From: an uncultured Cohaesibacter sp.
Lineage (GTDB): Bacteria; Pseudomonadota; Alphaproteobacteria; Rhizobiales; Cohaesibacteraceae
Assembly: GCF_963677725.1 (NCBI RefSeq)
Contig: NZ_OY782507.1
Span: 1,922,001-1,986,000, forward strand
Direction: 5' to 3'
DNA: 64,000 bases
Shown piece by piece: positions 1 through 21,116 of this stretch. The notes below the pieces were generated by a model. It ran no database searches. It worked only from the letters and a program-made list of their open reading frames with translations, and had not been told where the DNA came from. Each line of letters opens with the position of its first letter. Position 1 is the first letter of the stretch. Both the position numbers and the translations under genes were made by a program.

Positions 1-276
1 GACACCGTGTCCGCCAAGATGCGACGTTATCTCGACATTCTGATTTCGTTTTTACTGATGATCTATGCGCTCATTCTGGCTTATGCGGCGGGGCTGGTCG
101 CCTATGAATCGCTCTACACGCCATGGGGTGCCTTCCGCATGGAGACCAGCGGCAGCGCGTGGGATCCCCCTTTCCCTGCAATCATCAAGAGTTTTCTGTT
201 TCTCGTGCTGGCCGTAATGGTCATTCAAACCGCGCTGCACCTCGTCTATCATATCCGGAGGAAAGTCGATGCCTGA
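1..276 (+). CDS. TRAP transporter small permease (DctQ family), 3' part only
   Basis: The reading frame is open from the first base of the window, so the gene starts upstream and only the C-terminal part is present. Two hydrophobic segments are visible, roughly codons 9-33 and 60-82, followed by a basic end (HIRRKVDA). This matches the last two of the four membrane helices of DctQ proteins. The stop codon overlaps the start of the following large permease by 8 bases, the usual arrangement of the two membrane subunits. DctQ and DctM form the membrane part of a sodium-driven uptake system fed by a periplasmic binding protein, which must lie upstream. A GTG at position 7 could be read as a start, but an 89-residue protein would be too short for the family. 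The substrate cannot be read from this fragment. Confidence 0.85.
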   Translation, partial: DTVSAKMRRYLDILISFLLMIYALILAYAAGLVAYESLYTPWGAFRMETSGSAWDPPFPAIIKSFLFLVLAVMVIQTALHLVYHIRRKVDA

Positions 277-11999: not shown

Positions 12000-13172
12000 T
12001 CAGGCTTGGGGTCCGAGATCTTCATTATCGACATCACGAGTCAGATCCTGCTCGGCATCATCGGTCTTCTGCTTGGTGAAGCCGGAAATGCCTTCGGCAT
12101 ATTGCTCAAAGTCACGCTTGATCTCGACCGGACTGCCGACATAGGCGGTGATCAGCTCGGACAAAGACCGCAACGCATGCATGTGGATGCGCTCATAGCC
12201 GTGGGACGCATCAACACCGAATGTGATCAGAGCGGTTCGGACATCGGCCCCGGCCTCGATCGCGCTGGCGGAATCCGAACGGTAATAACGGAAGATATCC
12301 TTCTGGAAACGGATGTCATTTTCCCTGCAGAGCGAGACCAGTTTCTTGGTCAGATGATAGTCGAACGGGCCGGTCTGGTCCGCCATGCCAATGGTCACGC
12401 CGAACTCGTCAGAATTCTGGCCCGGAGCCGAAGTGCCGTTGTCGACCGAGATCATCGAAGCGACCTCTGGCGTAAGCACAGATGACGCGCCGACGCCGAC
12501 TTCCTCGGCAATGGTGAAAAGAAAATGGATATCGACCGGGGTCCGCAATTCCGCATCCTGCATGGCCTTTAGCGCCGTTAAGGCCACTGCAACGCCCGCC
12601 TTGTTGTCAAGATGGCGCGAGACAATGAAACCATTGTCGATGAATTCTGCCTGCGGATCGATGGCGACGATGTCACCGATATCGATGGTCAGCTTTTCCA
12701 GATCTTCCCTGTTGCGGGCCAGCGCATCGATGCGCAATTCCACATGGTCCCAGCCTATCGGGGCCTGATCCACTTCCTCGTTAAAGGTGTGACCGGACGC
12801 CTTGAGCGGCAGGATGGTACCGCGATAGGCGCCGTCTTCGGAAAAGATGGTGGCGCGCGCCCCTTCGGCAAATCGGGCAGACCAATGGCCAACTGGCACA
12901 AGTGCCAGGCGTCCATTGTCTTTCAGGAATTTGACCTGCGCACCCAGCGTGTCAAGATGGGTGACAATGGCACGTGCGCCTTTGCGGCGGGAGCCCTGTC
13001 GGATGGCGCAAATCGCCCCGCGTCGTGTCAATTCCGCTTCGAGCCCCAGGCTTTGCAGCTCTTCAGTCACGAAGCGGACAATGGTGTCGGTATAGCCTGT
13101 GGGACTGGGGATCTCCAACAGCCGCGACAGGATGGATTGCAGATAGCCGGTGTCAATGGTCAACAAGGTCAT
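12000..13172 (-). CDS. M42-family peptidase of the NAGGN osmolyte cluster
   Basis: 390 residues. The di-metal aminopeptidase fold is recognisable by its ligands: VTHLDTLG near residue 71, HLDNKAGVAV near 187, the EEVGVGASS pair of glutamates near 222, SVDNGT near 242 and the late histidine HGYERIH near 325. It is the third member of a conserved trio with the glutamine-dipeptide synthetase and the amidotransferase just upstream; the family is known as the trio M42 hydrolase. Its precise step is not established. Turnover or trimming of the dipeptide when osmotic stress ends is a reasonable guess. It begins 12 bases after the synthetase stop, so the three genes form one operon. The acidic C-terminal 20 residues are a tail beyond the core. 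Confidence 0.92.
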   Translation of the reverse strand: MTLLTIDTGYLQSILSRLLEIPSPTGYTDTIVRFVTEELQSLGLEAELTRRGAICAIRQGSRRKGARAIVTHLDTLGAQVKFLKDNGRLALVPVGHWSARFAEGARATIFSEDGAYRGTILPLKASGHTFNEEVDQAPIGWDHVELRIDALARNREDLEKLTIDIGDIVAIDPQAEFIDNGFIVSRHLDNKAGVAVALTALKAMQDAELRTPVDIHFLFTIAEEVGVGASSVLTPEVASMISVDNGTSAPGQNSDEFGVTIGMADQTGPFDYHLTKKLVSLCRENDIRFQKDIFRYYRSDSASAIEAGADVRTALITFGVDASHGYERIHMHALRSLSELITAYVGSPVEIKRDFEQYAEGISGFTKQKTDDAEQDLTRDVDNEDLGPQA

Positions 13173-13184
13173 GGAATTTGGGCC

Positions 13185-14984
13185 TTATTCGGTAGCGTCA
13201 CGGGTCAGCCGCTTTTGCCGCACGGCGGCGGGCATTGAGCGCGGAAAGAGCAGATCAATGAAGCGTTCTGCGGTCGGCTGGGGTTCATGATTGGCAAGGC
13301 CGGGCCGTTCATTGGCTTCGATGAAGACATAGTCGGCCTGACGATGGTCCTTTACCATGAAGTCGATCCCTGTGACAGGAATATCGATGGCCTTGGCTGC
13401 CTTGATGGCGGCTTGAATTAGATGCGGATGCACCTCTTCGGTGACATCGACAATCGTACCGCCGGTATGGAGATTGGCCGTTTTTCGGACGGTGATCTCC
13501 CGCCCCCGTTCGAGGCGATCATCCATGCCAAGGCCCGCTTCGATGACGCAACGCTCGGTTTCGGCATCAATGGGAATGGTGCTTTCGCCCCCGGTGGCAG
13601 CAGCGCGCCTGCGGCTCTGGGTCTCGATCAACTGACGCACGGTCTTCTTGCCGTCGCCAATCACCTTGGCTGGCAGGCGAAGCGCGGCGGCGACAACCTT
13701 GTCATCGATGACAACGAGGCGCAGATCGTGACCGATATAGCAATCTTCAAGCAGCACGTCGGGGCACACCTTGCGGGCGCGATCAATTGCCGCCAGGACG
13801 GCATCATAATTGCTGACCCCGACCGCAATGCCCTGTCCTTGCTCGCCGCGCGAGGGCTTGACGACAACGGACTCATGGCTGCGCAAAAAGGCCGAAATAT
13901 CGGCACCCTCCACCAGATCGAGTTGATCAGGGACAGTAACGCCAGCCTTCTCTGCGAGCTTGCGGGTCATCCGTTTGTCATCGCAAATGGACAAGGTGAC
14001 CGCACTGGTCAGATCGGTCAGGGACTCGCGGCAGCGGACCGAGCGGCCGCCATAGGTGAGCCGGAACATCCCATAATCCGCATCGATGATATCAACATGA
14101 ATGCCGCGTCTTAGCGCCTCATCAACAATAATCTGGGCATAGGGGTTGAGACCGGTCTTTTCCTGATCGCCCACAAACAGATTTTCGTTGATCTGGTTCT
14201 TGCGCTTGATGGCAAAGACATTGACCCGGCGAAAACCGAGTTTTTCGTAAAGGGCAATGGCCTGATCATTGTTATGCAGAACAGAGAGATCCATGTAGGA
14301 CGAGCCACGGGCCTTGTATTGTTCGGCCAACCGGCGCAGCAGGGATTCGCCCAAGCCCGCATGAGGAGCGTTGGGTGAGACCGCAAGGCACCAGAGCGAC
14401 GACCCCTTGTCCGGGTCGTCGAAGGCTTTTTCATGATCAATCCCCATCACCGAGCCCAGAACATCGCCGGTTTGTGCATCTTCGGCCACCAGCATGGTGA
14501 GCGTACCTGCATCCCTGTGCGACCAGAAAAATTCCGGCGGGACTGTGATCATCCCCCTTTCGGCGAGGATAACGTTGATGGCTTCGGCGTCGGCTTGGGT
14601 GGAGATGCGACGAATATGGAAGGTCTGCCGCCGATCGCGGGCTGGGCGATAATTGGCCAGATCCAGGCGATAGGTGTGGGACGGGTCAAGGAAAAACTCC
14701 TGTGGGGCTTGGGCCAGCACAACATGCGGATCGCGGACATAGAAGGCGATATCCCTCTGGTCCGACTGTTCATCGCGCATGACATCGATCAGTTCCTCGG
14801 CATTGTCAAAGGTATTGCCAAAGATCAGGCGTCCCCAGCCGCAATCCAATGCCACATTGGTGCGCTTGAGTTCGTGGGAGGCATGAAGCGAACTCATGCC
14901 TTCCTGCCTGATGCGCTGCAGCCGATGTTGGGCCACGTGACGCTGTTGGGGCGTTTGCTTCTGTTTTTCCCGGTCAGAGCTCAT
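13185..14984 (-). CDS. ngs: N-acetylglutaminylglutamine synthetase (GNAT plus ATP-grasp)
   Basis: About 599 residues from the ATG at 14984, chosen because AGGAGGT lies 9 bases upstream. The N-terminal half carries a GNAT acetyltransferase fold (LWCLAVSPNAPHAGLGESLLRRLAEQYKARG, the acetyl-CoA loop, then AIALYEKLGF). The C-terminal half is an ATP-grasp ligase (VVVKPSRGEQGQGIAVGV, VLLEDCYIGHDLRLVVIDDKVVAAALR, GIDFMVKD, FIEANERPGLANH). Such fused proteins acetylate glutamine and join a second glutamine, giving N-acetylglutaminylglutamine, which the partner amidotransferase amidates to NAGGN, a compatible solute of salt-stressed rhizobia and pseudomonads. It starts 5 bases after the amidotransferase stop. 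Confidence 0.93.
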   Translation of the reverse strand: MSSDREKQKQTPQQRHVAQHRLQRIRQEGMSSLHASHELKRTNVALDCGWGRLIFGNTFDNAEELIDVMRDEQSDQRDIAFYVRDPHVVLAQAPQEFFLDPSHTYRLDLANYRPARDRRQTFHIRRISTQADAEAINVILAERGMITVPPEFFWSHRDAGTLTMLVAEDAQTGDVLGSVMGIDHEKAFDDPDKGSSLWCLAVSPNAPHAGLGESLLRRLAEQYKARGSSYMDLSVLHNNDQAIALYEKLGFRRVNVFAIKRKNQINENLFVGDQEKTGLNPYAQIIVDEALRRGIHVDIIDADYGMFRLTYGGRSVRCRESLTDLTSAVTLSICDDKRMTRKLAEKAGVTVPDQLDLVEGADISAFLRSHESVVVKPSRGEQGQGIAVGVSNYDAVLAAIDRARKVCPDVLLEDCYIGHDLRLVVIDDKVVAAALRLPAKVIGDGKKTVRQLIETQSRRRAAATGGESTIPIDAETERCVIEAGLGMDDRLERGREITVRKTANLHTGGTIVDVTEEVHPHLIQAAIKAAKAIDIPVTGIDFMVKDHRQADYVFIEANERPGLANHEPQPTAERFIDLLFPRSMPAAVRQKRLTRDATE

Positions 14985-14989
14985 GTGCT

Positions 14990-16765
14990 TCAGACCTCCT
15001 GCGTTTGCAACCACAATTCGAGCAAAGCGACCTGCCACAGCTCGGAGCCGCGCAGGGGTGTAATATGGTCAGACGGGGCATCAAACAGCCGATCCAGATA
15101 GGATTGCTGGAACAGACCGCGATCTTTGGCCGCTTGCGAGCCAAGGGCGTCCTTGACCATCTCAAGGTAAGGGCCTTCGATATATTTGAGGGCCGGAACC
15201 GGGAAATAGCCCTTGGGTCGATCAATCACCGCGGACGGAATGACCTGTCGTGCGGCTTGCTTTAACACGCCCTTGCCGCCATGGGCCAGCTTATGGCGGC
15301 TGGGGATGCGACCTGCCAGTTCCACCACCTCATGATCGAGGAATGGCACGCGGGCTTCCAGACCCCACGCCATGGTCATATTGTCGACCCGCTTGACCGG
15401 ATCATCGACCAGCATGACATTGGTGTCGAGGCGCAGGGCCTTGTCGACAGGATCGGAAGCGCCGGGACGAGAGAAATGCTCGGCAACGAAGGCCAGACTT
15501 TCATTGCGATCGGCGAGATAGTCGGGATTCAGATGGCGCGCCATGCGCTTCTGGTCACGGTCGAAAAAGGCCAGAGCATAATTCTCGATCGGATTCTGGG
15601 CGCTTTGCAGTGGCGGATACCAGTGATAGCCGCCAAAGACTTCGTCAGCCCCCTGGCCCGACTGCACCACCTTGATGGTCTTGGAGACTTCCCGGCTGAG
15701 CAAATAGAAGCCGATATTGTCATAGGACACCATTGGCTCGGACATGGCCTTGATGGCATGGGGGAGATTTTCCATCATCTCGTCGGATGGAATGTGGATC
15801 TTGTGGTGGTTGGTGCCATAATGCTTGGCGATGAGGTCGGAATATTCGAACTCGTTGCCCTTCTCATTGTTGGCATCTTCAAAGCCGATGGAATAGGTCG
15901 CCAGACCTTCCTGCCCCTGCTCGGCCAAAAGACCGACAATCATCGAGCTGTCCACCCCGCCCGAGAGCAACACGCCGACGGGCACGTCGCAGACCATGCG
16001 ACGGCGCACGGACTTGCGCAATTCTTCCAGCAGCAAGTCGCACCATTCGCCTTCCGAGCGGGCTTCATCTTCCGCACTTCGCTCAAAGGTTGGCTCCCAG
16101 TAGGTTTTCTCTGTGGAGTGGCCTTGTGCATCAATGATGCGCAGGGTGGCTGCGGGCAGTTTGCGCACGCCATTGAGGATGGTGCGTGGTGCAGGCACCA
16201 CCGCATGCCATGTCATGTAATGATGCAAAGCGGCACGGTCGATGGACGTATCGACATCACCTCCGGCAAGGATCGATTGCAAGCTGGAAGCAAAGCGGAT
16301 ATGTCCGGGGCCTTCATTCAAATAGAGCGGTTTGATGCCAAACCGGTCACGGGCAAGGATTGTGCGTCCGGTGCGCTTTTCATAGATGACAAAGGCAAAC
16401 ATGCCTTGCAGACGCGGCAGGGCCTCTTCGCCCCATTCGGCCCAAGCCTTAAGAATGACTTCGGTGTCCCCTTGCGACTTGAAGCGATGGCCTGCTTGCT
16501 GAAGCTCGGCGCGCAGTTCGGGATAATTGTAAATACAGCCATTGAAGACCATGATGCGCTCATTGTCTTCATCGTTGAAGGGCTGGCTGGAAGCATCGGA
16601 CAGATCGATGATTTTCAGGCGTCTATGTCCCATGCCAATCGGGCCTTCGGCATGGGTTCCTGACGCATCGGGGCCACGCGAGGCGAGGCGGTCTGTCATG
16701 GTCTGGATTTTTTCGATTGGAACGTGAGTGCCATCGAACCTGACTTCGCCGCAAATTCCACACAT
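14990..16765 (-). CDS. asnO: N-acetylglutaminylglutamine amidotransferase (asparagine-synthetase type)
   Basis: 591 residues. The mature protein would begin at the nucleophilic cysteine of MCGICGEV, followed by the class II glutaminase motifs RLASRGPDASG, GHRRLKIIDLS and FNGCIYNYPELR. The synthetase half has the ATP pyrophosphatase loop LLSGGVDSSM near residue 268 and a PFLDHEVVELA-type segment near 480. It transfers ammonia from glutamine to the dipeptide made by the neighbouring synthetase, completing NAGGN. A GGAGA site precedes the ATG. This is the first gene of the operon; the promoter must lie in 16766-17016, where the sequence is AT-rich but I could not pick a specific box. Confidence 0.94.
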   Translation of the reverse strand: MCGICGEVRFDGTHVPIEKIQTMTDRLASRGPDASGTHAEGPIGMGHRRLKIIDLSDASSQPFNDEDNERIMVFNGCIYNYPELRAELQQAGHRFKSQGDTEVILKAWAEWGEEALPRLQGMFAFVIYEKRTGRTILARDRFGIKPLYLNEGPGHIRFASSLQSILAGGDVDTSIDRAALHHYMTWHAVVPAPRTILNGVRKLPAATLRIIDAQGHSTEKTYWEPTFERSAEDEARSEGEWCDLLLEELRKSVRRRMVCDVPVGVLLSGGVDSSMIVGLLAEQGQEGLATYSIGFEDANNEKGNEFEYSDLIAKHYGTNHHKIHIPSDEMMENLPHAIKAMSEPMVSYDNIGFYLLSREVSKTIKVVQSGQGADEVFGGYHWYPPLQSAQNPIENYALAFFDRDQKRMARHLNPDYLADRNESLAFVAEHFSRPGASDPVDKALRLDTNVMLVDDPVKRVDNMTMAWGLEARVPFLDHEVVELAGRIPSRHKLAHGGKGVLKQAARQVIPSAVIDRPKGYFPVPALKYIEGPYLEMVKDALGSQAAKDRGLFQQSYLDRLFDAPSDHITPLRGSELWQVALLELWLQTQEV

Positions 16766-17016: not shown

Positions 17017-17511
17017 CTATTTGTTCTCGGACGGCTTTTGGAAAGCCTGCTGGACATGAATATGACGATGAGGAGAGGCTTTTTCATCATCATGGACATG
17101 ATGATCGCCGTGAGCACTGATTGGCACCAGAGAAAGTGCACCATGCGCCACACCTCGCTCCAAAAACAGGGTTTCGGCAGCGGACGCAATGTCTCCGAGC
17201 TTGCCTTGGGTGACTTCAATTTCCAGCGCGGTGGAATGGTCCAGCGGCACCGACAGGGAGGTCAGATGGCGGTCATGGGCATCGAGCCGACGCTTGGCCA
17301 GTCTGGCACCAAGATTGCGTTTGGTCTGATCGACGGTATAGGAAACAATTCCCAAACAATCTGCATCATCCGGGCCGTCATACCGGTCCAGCATGGCGCG
17401 TCGAACCAGATCGCGAATGGCTTCGGACCGATTTTTTGCCCCGCTATCCCCCATATATTGGTCTAGGTCTGTGGCAATTTCATCAGAAAGCGTAATGGTG
17501 ATGCGCTTCAT
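17017..17511 (-). CDS. nikR: NikR-family ribbon-helix-helix regulator lacking the canonical nickel ligands
   Basis: 164 residues against about 133 for E. coli NikR. The N-terminal strand MKRITITL keeps the DNA-contacting Arg3, Thr5 and Thr7, and NRSEAIRD (27-34) is identical to E. coli. The C-terminal ACT-like domain aligns without gaps (YTVDQTKRNL, ALEIEVTQGKLGDI, ERGVAHG). At the four high-affinity nickel positions, His76, His87, His89 and Cys95 of E. coli, this protein has Leu76, Ser87, Pro89 and Ala95. His79 and His82 remain nearby. Beyond the family end there is a tail with seven histidines between residues 134 and 152. It is divergent from the NikK-like gene across an exact NikR operator. 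It should bind that DNA, but how it senses metal must differ from E. coli. Confidence 0.9.
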   Translation of the reverse strand: MKRITITLSDEIATDLDQYMGDSGAKNRSEAIRDLVRRAMLDRYDGPDDADCLGIVSYTVDQTKRNLGARLAKRRLDAHDRHLTSLSVPLDHSTALEIEVTQGKLGDIASAAETLFLERGVAHGALSLVPISAHGDHHVHDDEKASPHRHIHVQQAFQKPSENK

Positions 17512-17621
17512 CTTTTCGCGGTCCTTCAGCTGTTTTTCGGCTTTTCAGCCCATACCGAGCTTAACAGCAAAGGCCCCATATCAGAAGGAACAAAAAAATA
17601 CGTATTGTACAGGCAGTGGGG

Positions 17622-17649
17622 GTATGATTTATCTTCGATTTATTCATAC
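17622..17649. promoter_or_regulatory. NikR operator, exact match to GTATGA-N16-TCATAC
   Basis: GTATGA at 17622-17627 and TCATAC at 17644-17649 are separated by exactly 16 bases, the arrangement known for E. coli NikR. One further base on each side (G and C) continues the symmetry. The site lies between the divergent nikR gene (start 17511) and the NikK-like gene (start 17683), 33 bases before the latter start, so it could repress both. Confidence 0.9.
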
Positions 17650-17682: not shown

Positions 17683-18450
17683 ATGATCGTATCTGCCCGC
17701 ACCCTAACGTTGGCTTCCCTGCTTGTCTCTTTTGCTTTGCCTGTGTCCGCTCATTTTCAGGAAATCATTCCATCTGCGGATGTTTTGCCCGATGGTGGCA
17801 CCGTCGATGTGAACCTTGTTTTCACCCACCCGTTCGAAGGTGGCCCTGTCATGAATATGGCAAAGCCGACTATGGTCGGGGTGTTGAAAGACGGCGAGAA
17901 GCAGGATCTTGGCAGCAAGCTTGTGGAAAAACCGCAGGGCGATGCAATGGCTTACAGCTTCAGTTATGAGCTGGCCGAACCGGGCGCTTCGATCTTCTAT
18001 GTCGAGCCAGCCCCTTATTGGGAACCTGCTGAAGGCAAGTATATCATCCATTATTCAAAGGTCGTCGTAGACAATTATGCTTCGGGTGAAGGCTGGGATG
18101 AAACTGTTGGCTTCCCGGTTGAAATCGTACCCATGAGCAACCCGACCGGCCTTTGGACCGGCAATCTGTTTACCGGCATCGTCACCAAAGGTGGCAAGCC
18201 TGTGCCGTTTGCTGAAATCGAAGTGGAACTGATCAATGATCAGGGCATCAAGGCACCGAACGATGCTTACATCACCCAGGTAATCAAGGCAGATGCCAAT
18301 GGCACCTTCTCCTACGCCATGCCTTTTGCAGGCTGGTGGGGATTTGCCGCCTTGATCGATGGCGACAAGCCGATGACCTCGCCGAACGGCAAGGAGGTGC
18401 CGGTTGAGCTTGGTGCCCTCATTTGGGTCAATGCCAAATCGCCGCAATAA
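17683..18450 (+). CDS. exported DUF4198 protein, NikK-like periplasmic nickel-uptake component
   Basis: 255 residues from the ATG at 17683, which has AAGGA upstream and a signal peptide (residues 1-22, ending PVSA). The mature protein starts with HFQEI, so its first residue is a histidine that could bind metal as the free N-terminus. A second part, from about residue 155 (GNLFTGIVTKGGKPVPFAEIEVELIND), looks like a carboxypeptidase-regulatory beta-sandwich, ending FSYAMPFAGWWGFAALIDGD. DUF4198 proteins accompany nickel and cobalt uptake transporters in proteobacteria (NikK). The NikR operator immediately upstream supports a nickel role. The ATG-bearing extension upstream to 17605 runs through the operator and is not used. 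Confidence 0.85.
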   Translation: MIVSARTLTLASLLVSFALPVSAHFQEIIPSADVLPDGGTVDVNLVFTHPFEGGPVMNMAKPTMVGVLKDGEKQDLGSKLVEKPQGDAMAYSFSYELAEPGASIFYVEPAPYWEPAEGKYIIHYSKVVVDNYASGEGWDETVGFPVEIVPMSNPTGLWTGNLFTGIVTKGGKPVPFAEIEVELINDQGIKAPNDAYITQVIKADANGTFSYAMPFAGWWGFAALIDGDKPMTSPNGKEVPVELGALIWVNAKSPQ

Positions 18451-19529: not shown

Positions 19530-21116
19530 ATGTGGCAGAAATTGCGTTCATCTAAGCACCTCGAACCAGTCCTGATCTTCATTCTGGCTATTCTGGCTTG
19601 GAGAATCGGATCGCACTATGACGGCTTTGAAGTGCTGGTCAATTATGTAAATACCCATGAATCATGGGAACTTGATGAGCTCTTGCTTGCAGTGGCGATG
19701 TTAGGGCTTGCAGGGGCCTTCAATTATTACCGCTATCTGACCAAGCAACGAATGGAAGCTCAGCGACGCGTGCGTGCAGAAAGCGACCTTGATTGGCTGT
19801 CTCACCATGACAGTTTAACGGGTCTGCCCAATCGCCATTATCTCAAGAGTTTTGTCGAGACGTCCGATCGCGGCTTTAGCAAGCAAAAAGGCAAAGATCC
19901 TGACACAGCCTATGGTCTGATTGCGATGGATCTGGATGGCTTCAAAAAGGTCAATGATTTGTTGGGCCATGCGGGTGGTGATCGATTGCTCTGCCAGATA
20001 GCGGAGCGGATCACGGCACATGATGCCGTACAACTGGCCTTCCGTCTTGGTGGTGACGAGTTTCTCGCTGTGATTGATCTCAACAAGACGCCAGATATTG
20101 AGTCCATTGCGGGAGACCTGCGTCAAAGCCTTCTGGCTCCAATTCTCATAGATGGCATCACCAACCACATCGGCGTGTCCATGGGACTGGCACGATTTCC
20201 GCACGACAGTTCCGACCTCACCGGGGCGATCAACAATGCCGATATTGCCATGTATCATGCCAAGAGATCAGGCAAGAATGGCATTGCGTCCTTCGAGCCA
20301 GAAATGCTTGAGCTGAAGATCGAACGCTCCAAACTCGAGCAGGATTTGCTGGCCGCGCTGGCGCGCAATGAAATCAAGCCTTACTATCAGCCTTTGTTTG
20401 ACCTGAAGTCCGGCGACTTGCGCGGATTCGAAGCTTTGGCGCGTTGGAATCGTGCAGGTCACGGCTATGTTCCGCCAAGTAAATTCATCCCGCTTGCCGA
20501 AGATATGGGTGTCATCACTGAATTGTCGGACAAGCTATTGTTGCAGGCCAGTAGAGATGCCAAGGCATGGCCGGCGGATTTGACCTTGTCGTTCAATTTG
20601 TCTCCATTGCAATTGTCAGACCGACTTGTGGGCCTGCGTATTCTTTCTGTGTTGTGCGAGACCGGCCTGCCGCCCCATCGTCTGGAAGTGGAAGTCACCG
20701 AATCGTCGCTCATCATCGATATGGAACTGGCGAGCGAGGTGATCGAGAGCCTGCATAAAGCCGGTGTCCGGATTGCGCTGGATGATTTCGGTACGGGCTA
20801 TTCCAACCTGTCGCAACTAACCAACCTCTATTTCGACCGCATCAAGATTGACCGCAGCTTCATTAGCAGCATCAAGACCGACGAGAAGCAGATGCGCATC
20901 GTCAAGACCATTCTGTCTCTCGGCGAAGGGCTTGGCCTTTACACCACGGCAGAAGGCATCGAAGAAATGGAGCAAATGGCCATCCTTCAGGATCTTGGCT
21001 GCGATTGTGGTCAGGGGTTTCATTTGGGCAAACCAGTGAATTCGGTTGAAACCGCGCATTTCATTGACGAACATTTCAAACAGAAGAATAAAGAGCGCTT
21101 ACGCGAAAGCGCCTAA
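19530..21116 (+). CDS. membrane-bound GGDEF-EAL protein (cyclic-di-GMP metabolism)
   Basis: 528 residues: two hydrophobic segments near residues 13-30 and 50-70, then a GGDEF domain (HHDSLTGLPNRHYL near 92; intact GGDEF at 174-178) and an EAL domain (FEALARW with EAL at 301-303, NLSPLQL, EVEVTESSLI, ALDDFGTGYSNL, FDRIKIDRSFI, AEGIEEMEQM, QGFHLGKP). Catalytic residues of both domains are present, so it could make and degrade cyclic-di-GMP. The RxxD inhibitory site is absent before GGDEF, so product inhibition is not expected. The N-terminal region is too short to be a recognisable sensor. It stands alone between the nickel-type locus and the polyol operon. Confidence 0.95.
   Translation: MWQKLRSSKHLEPVLIFILAILAWRIGSHYDGFEVLVNYVNTHESWELDELLLAVAMLGLAGAFNYYRYLTKQRMEAQRRVRAESDLDWLSHHDSLTGLPNRHYLKSFVETSDRGFSKQKGKDPDTAYGLIAMDLDGFKKVNDLLGHAGGDRLLCQIAERITAHDAVQLAFRLGGDEFLAVIDLNKTPDIESIAGDLRQSLLAPILIDGITNHIGVSMGLARFPHDSSDLTGAINNADIAMYHAKRSGKNGIASFEPEMLELKIERSKLEQDLLAALARNEIKPYYQPLFDLKSGDLRGFEALARWNRAGHGYVPPSKFIPLAEDMGVITELSDKLLLQASRDAKAWPADLTLSFNLSPLQLSDRLVGLRILSVLCETGLPPHRLEVEVTESSLIIDMELASEVIESLHKAGVRIALDDFGTGYSNLSQLTNLYFDRIKIDRSFISSIKTDEKQMRIVKTILSLGEGLGLYTTAEGIEEMEQMAILQDLGCDCGQGFHLGKPVNSVETAHFIDEHFKQKNKERLRESA

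Follow-up and report, generated by a model that had tools for sequence, protein, structure and literature searches.

NikR is a textbook metalloregulator, the nickel selectivity of which is explained by the geometry at one site. A first-pass annotation of the window, a stretch of 64,000 nucleotides from an uncultured Cohaesibacter sp., pointed to a NikR homolog with an intact DNA-binding end and an exact neighboring operator, but with all four canonical nickel ligands replaced. The locus raises the question of what such a protein senses, and by which site; a clade in which operator and targets persist without this site would test whether nickel selectivity needs that geometry, and how a sensor can exchange one metal site for another yet keep its regulon. 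The features of the locus are collected in Table 1.

Table 1. Features of the nikR–nikK locus and related elements (nucleotide positions refer to the window, unless a locus or residue range is given)
Feature	Position	Strand	Basis
nikR-like gene, 164 aa, ATG start	17017–17511	(-)	ORF, Pfam, NCBIfam, phmmer, AlphaFold2 fold match
RHH DNA-binding part of the window protein	residues about 1–45		
NikR_C core of the window protein without canonical Ni ligands	residues 50–132		
Codons of the conserved C-terminal His tail, residues 131–157	17041–17121	(-)	motif in 62/62 variant rows; modeled strand 148–153
NikR operator GTATGA-N16-TCATAC, palindrome, no mismatch	17622–17649	.	pattern match; between nikR and nikK
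nikK-like gene (DUF4198; 255 aa), transcribed divergently from nikR	17683–18450	(+)	PF10670, 184.9 bits
nikL gene, 199 aa	18626–19225	(+)	NF058648, 163.1 bits (cut-off 100)
Two cobalamin riboswitches	L009, 994–1206 and 7439–7662		second precedes DUF4198-CbiM-NikL-CbiQ-CbiO set

The window protein, the sole NikR-like match of the 4.63-Mb genome, exceeds the curated cut-offs of both Pfam domains, NikR_C (PF08753; 50.2 bits, cut-off 22) and RHH_1 (PF01402; 25.7 bits, cut-off 20.5), and its residues 1–130 were aligned by phmmer with residues 1–130 of Escherichia coli NikR with zero gaps (4e-21), which bears out both the homology and the shared numbering first obtained by eye. Among the NCBIfam models, NF002815 was matched with 111.2 bits, above its cut-off of 83, and TIGR02793 with 109.2 bits, short of its cut-off of 175.45; L024, which served as a canonical control, passes both cut-offs (201.2 and 189 bits). 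The DNA-binding end is indeed intact, with Arg3, Thr5, Thr7, and the NRSEAIRD stretch all retained. The four Ni(II) ligands of E. coli NikR (His76, His87, His89, and Cys95; PMC7055735, section 2.1) are replaced by Leu, Ser, Pro, and Ala (H76L, H87S, H89P, and C95A), as had been claimed, and it is indeed the ligand positions that carry these replacements, because residues 50–132 of the AlphaFold2 model superpose on residues 50–132 of the Ni-bound regulatory domain of E. coli NikR (1q5y_B) with 83/83 residues aligned at 1.3 Å. The structure alignment runs without a shift, and therefore no His or Cys is hidden at the old site; a register shift is ruled out by the sequence and structure alignments alike. 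Over the full length the superposition is loose (2hza_A, 131 residues, 10.3 Å), and the fold comparisons with PDB entries covered about residues 1–132, so that they hardly tested the tail. Glu30 and Asp34, which belong to the second (K+/low-affinity) site, are present in the window protein and invariant in all 42 aligned variants. Decay into a pseudogene is ruled out by the open frame and by the conservation of the tail in the 62 sequence rows described below.

The replacements proved to define a clade, as the first-pass annotation had suggested checking. Among 101 genomes (the window genome and 100 relatives), 27 contain one NikR-like match each, 15 of which are variants by sequence. Scanning genome contigs with the single window protein as the query gave no matches; a later scan, for which an alignment of C-terminal parts served as the query, yielded 48 loci, 47 of which were accepted as real, and the weakest match (L083), with an unaligned ligand region, was taken as false and excluded from every count. 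The resulting 62 variant rows (the window protein, 14 relatives, and the 47 loci) comprise 58 distinct sequences; the 47-locus scan targeted the variant and carries no information on its frequency. All of these rows have Ser at position 87, except L072, which has Thr; position 89 is always Pro, and position 95 is never Cys. Position 76 is occupied by Leu, Gln, or Met in 56 rows and still by His in six (L019–L023 and L081). A tree was calculated from 87 rows and 124 columns, from which positions 76, 79, 87, 89, 92, and 95 and everything past residue 130 had been removed, and all 62 variant rows fell on one side of a single branch (support, 100/98; one change). The tree program warned of the small number of columns and of a possibly false join of the variant clade with the long branch L035/L095/L107, a warning that concerns the neighbor of the clade and not its unity; two Cohaesibacter loci (L079 and L081) match rows of the window's genus exactly in the kept columns. 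By their sequences, the variants thus form a single clade and not a lone mutant.

Members of the clade occur in a dozen alphaproteobacterial families (Roseobacteraceae, Paracoccaceae, Aurantimonadaceae, Phyllobacteriaceae, Xanthobacteraceae, Kaistiaceae, Stappiaceae, Methylobacteriaceae, Cohaesibacteraceae, Amorphaceae, Roseomonadaceae, and Acetobacteraceae). The variant is nevertheless restricted, because in an even draw over the class (289 genomes, 14 with a match) the variant profile beat the canonical one only for the window protein. On the aligned sequences, we define here a rebuilt-site NikR subfamily as one clade with Ser/Thr87-x-Pro89, no Cys95, His79, His92, and the tail motif given below, into which the window protein fits. 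Outside the clade, L035, L095, and L107 are NikR_C-like proteins on a very long branch with Arg/Ser at position 76 and Thr/Ser at position 95, and may represent a further subfamily.

The seven histidines counted by the first-pass annotation past the normal NikR end are all there (residues 134, 137, 138, 140, 148, 150, and 152), and their conservation distinguishes four of them. The 42 aligned variants, of which 41 share 40–72% identity with the window protein, have seven invariant histidines (His79, His92, His123, His138, His140, His148, and His150), and Val153 and Phe157 are nearly invariant; Cys52 is invariant within the clade. In nine aligned canonical NikRs, His79 is invariant, position 92 is variable, and the tails do not align. 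The tail pattern HxH-x(5–26)-HxH-xx-[VI]-xxx-[FL], which was written after inspection of the sequences and is formed in the window protein by His138/His140, His148/His150, Val153, and Phe157, was found in 62/62 variant rows and in 0/19 other NikRs (17 with His76/His87/His89/Cys95, i.e., HHHC, and two with HQHC), and in 49 of the 62 variants the protein terminates exactly at the last Phe/Leu of the motif. HQHC is also the ligand set of L032 and L033, which have a His-rich tail some 130 residues long. His-rich tails are also found on some NikRs with the classic ligands (L028, L029, L085, and L093), so that a His tail alone is no proof of a sensor.

The AlphaFold2 model of the window protein has its last strand at residues 121–136 and an extra strand at 148–153, and that of L081, which is 40% identical to the window protein, has strands at 121–138 and 146–153. 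The mean pLDDT was 64 for residues 131–150 and 80 for residues 151–160 of the window protein, and 79 (131–140), 76 (141–150), and 88 (151–157) for L081; both are models of metal-free monomers (pTM, 0.62 and 0.67), and the two runs are not independent, because nearly the same sequences entered both alignments. With moderate confidence, the tail is thus modeled as a β-hairpin past the normal NikR end. Of the alternative sites proposed in the first-pass annotation (His79, His82, or the tail), the tail gains indirect support from the invariance of its four histidines in the clade, His79 is invariant but also usual in canonical NikRs, and His82 is ruled out as a ligand, not being conserved in the clade; the invariant His92 had not been named.

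The operator between nikR and nikK was found exactly as described, without a mismatch, whereas the nine other matches to the pattern in the window all have three mismatches. It is the same GTATGA-N16-TCATAC as that of E. coli NikR (PMC7055735, section 2.1) and ends 33 nt from the nikK ATG, so the canonical target, this sequence at a nickel-uptake gene, is matched by sequence. The window genome has three perfect sites. The second, at 1542090 (L007, 8091–8118), lies where a nikA-like ORF begins; the ABC operon to which this ORF belongs is predicted to encode a co-regulated uptake system, although the best match of the nikA-like product (TIGR02294 nickel_nikA, 103.6 bits) is below the cut-off of 393. 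The third (2231032) lies inside a 752-aa ORF, chemotaxis-receptor-like by eye, and was taken as a chance occurrence. With two or fewer mismatches, the pattern was no commoner in the window genome than a reversed control (60 vs 56 matches), and only perfect matches were therefore used.

Perfect operators were found in 26 of 36 variant genomes (29 sites), and the reversed pattern in none. For 27 of the sites, the adjoining gene is nikK or nikA-like, in one case by eye: in a set of 26 sites, 23 adjoin nikK, two adjoin nikA-like genes, and one (L134/L140) adjoins a short ORF that is NikA-like by eye, while one of the remaining three adjoins nikK and two have no adjoining nickel genes. Outside this assignment, further perfect sites occur in G001, G008, G013 (two), and G054. 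The ten variant genomes without a perfect operator include all five from Methylobacteriaceae. In the window's genus, a perfect operator was found in 13/13 variant genomes (the window genome included) and in 0/5 genomes without a NikR match, although these genomes are kin and the completeness of one among the five is only 64%; the G004 site (3776604), which lies 90 nt beyond the nikR match, is assigned by position only. Among genomes with other NikRs, 5/20 have a perfect site, and three of the five sites in canonical-NikR alphaproteobacteria, one per genome, adjoin nikA or nikK. The 36-genome set and the sets of the genus and of other NikRs seem to overlap (G007/G419, G010/G421, G082/G408, and G095/G396 have the same sites), so that their counts are not additive. 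Within the 500 nt before nikR at 48 loci (the window included), the operator occurs without a mismatch in 24 and with one mismatch in five, all 29 of which have an adjoining divergent nikK, and the reversed pattern never matched with fewer than two mismatches. From these placements, the regulon looks unchanged in the variant clade. Perfect operators also occur away from nickel genes in L137 (G419, also G007), L138 (G412), and L151 (G004); in two relatives, at L137 4029 and L151 1501, the perfect operator stands beside the same GntR-like regulator gene, as judged by eye.

The first-pass annotation had also suggested looking for NikK/NikL-type genes with the clade, and these do co-occur: 34 of the 48 loci (the window included) have an adjoining divergent nikK and 31 have the whole nikKMLQO set, 14 being without an adjoining nikK. 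In the window itself, no nikM, nikQ, or nikO was found beside nikK and nikL, and the next large ORF after nikL, at 19530, is GGDEF/EAL-like by eye. The nearest relative (G008) likewise has nikL directly after nikK, whereas G016 and G012 have cbiM there. Because the only CbiM match of the window genome lies elsewhere, in the DUF4198-CbiM-NikL-CbiQ-CbiO set of L009, nikK and nikL of the window form an orphaned pair, unlike the NikKMLQO transporter described in PMC2667541, where orphan NikK/NikL proteins without known function are also reported. In the window genome, relatives of one transporter type stand under two different metal controls. A canonical-profile search of the 36 variant genomes gave one match in 34 and, in G403, an extra 47-residue match to the N-terminal part of NikR, so that a second full-length NikR match is absent from 35 of the 36. 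The exception is G410 (Pseudoroseomonas wenyumeiae, L062), in which a canonical-like NikR (188 bits) occurs together with the variant and no perfect operator was found. Urease alpha is encoded in 15/15 variant genomes among the relatives, which agrees with nickel use without being diagnostic of it, because 80 of the 101 genomes overall have it too (72 above the cut-off).

Judged by its target and context, the variant would do the job of NikR. We consider it probable, though by a modest measure, that it is a nickel-responsive NikR-family repressor, the metal site of which has moved from the core interface to the histidine hairpin, perhaps with His79 or His92. In this mechanism, the RHH end would still recognize GTATGA-N16-TCATAC, the square-planar His3Cys site between subunits would be gone (His87 to Ser, His89 to Pro, and Cys95 to Ala/Ser), and Ni(II) would be bound by the two HxH pairs of the C-terminal hairpin (138/140 and 148/150), perhaps assisted by His79 and/or His92, both invariant, from the same subunit or an adjacent one, with coordination by five or six N/O ligands being likelier than a square plane. 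Binding of nickel would lock the tetramer in its DNA-binding form, so that plentiful nickel would, through the operator in the nikR–nikK interval, turn off nikK–nikL (nikKMLQO in relatives) and probably nikR itself, and would also turn off a nikABCDE-like operon. In its stricter form, in which the square-planar His3Cys site of the interface gave way to an all-histidine Ni(II) site on a newly acquired C-terminal hairpin without a change of fold, operator, or regulon, the proposal seems to us close to evenly balanced between right and wrong. If true, the relocated site would be a natural experiment on allostery surviving the move of the effector site.

That the variant might act on the same operator and targets with a metal other than nickel (e.g., cobalt or zinc), or with nickel and cobalt alike, appears unlikely. 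Six-ligand all-His sites suit several metals, and some proteobacterial NikKMLQO-type systems are inferred to carry cobalt, according to PMC2667541. Against this, nikK(MLQO) and nikA-like genes are where the operators of the variants are sited, and nickel is favored over cobalt because the other DUF4198-CbiM-NikL-CbiQ-CbiO set of the window genome follows a cobalamin riboswitch and is thus separately controlled; the fixed tail histidines together with operators at nickel-uptake genes also fit less well with another metal.

Less probable again is a metal-independent repressor that has lost its sensing site and bears a tail that merely stores or hands over nickel. The loss of His87, His89, and Cys95 throughout the 62 rows accords with it, as does the existence of single NikRs that have lost ligands without gaining a tail (L025, QAPR, and L094, RQPY). 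Yet a storage tail should vary freely, as the tails of the nine aligned canonical NikRs do, whereas this deep clade keeps four tail histidines, the near-fixed V..F end, and the invariant His92, and constitutive binding sits poorly with such fixed histidines and with operators at nickel-uptake genes. In both L025 and L094, which lie outside the clade, Pro89 recurs.

Equally improbable is that the old pocket still binds metal through nearby substitutes (His79 for His76, and His92 and Cys52 for the rest) with the tail as an accessory, for although these three residues are invariant in the clade and six of the 62 rows retain His76, the fold match leaves positions 87, 89, and 95 as Ser, Pro, and Ala, the tail is equally invariant, and Cys52 and His79 are no special compensations, because both are usual in canonical alphaproteobacterial NikRs too.

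The relocated hairpin site that we prefer can be set against known systems. E. coli NikR (1q5v, 2hza, and 1q5y) and the canonical NikR_C family share with the variant the gap-free RHH and NikR_C architecture (residues 1–130), the operator, Glu30/Asp34, and the place beside nickel-uptake genes; the variant differs in having lost three of the four high-affinity ligands in every row and the fourth in 56 of 62, and in its HxH...HxH tail, invariant His92, and Ser/Thr87-x-Pro89. Canonical alphaproteobacterial NikRs (e.g., Paracoccus yeei, L024, and L031) likewise accompany, in some genomes, the same operator beside nikA or nikKMLQO, and commonly have Cys52 and His79, but keep His76, His87, His89, and Cys95, and their C-terminal tails are variable or absent. 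The nikR knock-out of P. yeei, as presented in PMC11578231, was discarded as evidence on the variant, because the plasmid NikR of P. yeei has all four ligands (the sequence compared came from strain TT13, and the mutated strains were others). SlyD and UreE are also nickel proteins with a His-rich C-terminal extension; according to PMC7055735, the tail of SlyD is variable and lacks structure and that of UreE is dispensable for urease maturation, whereas the variant tail follows a fixed HxH...HxH..V...F pattern and is modeled as a strand.

The family is NikR and is already so called by annotation pipelines; by its ligands, the window protein falls outside the canonical, ligand-defined NikR. Judged by the titles and abstract openings listed, the literature on NikR homologs with altered ligands or tails, NikKMLQO, operators, and the host genera does not describe this clade. 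The label "nickel-responsive NikR" (NF002815 and a Roseomonas marmotae plasmid record) includes a subfamily without the known ligands. The R. marmotae plasmid protein, annotated nikR and outside the 62 rows, is a variant with Ser-x-Pro and the tail motif; its gene is flanked on one side by DUF4198-cbiM-hypothetical-cbiQ-ABC (a nikKMLQO set) and on the other by an SLC13 permease and an ammonium transporter, followed by a urea transporter, ureD, and ureG. Beside nikR in the window, a row of asparagine-synthase-like, GNAT/ATP-grasp-like, and peptidase-like ORFs occupies positions 12000–16765, which we take to resemble an N-acetylglutaminylglutamine amide osmolyte cluster.
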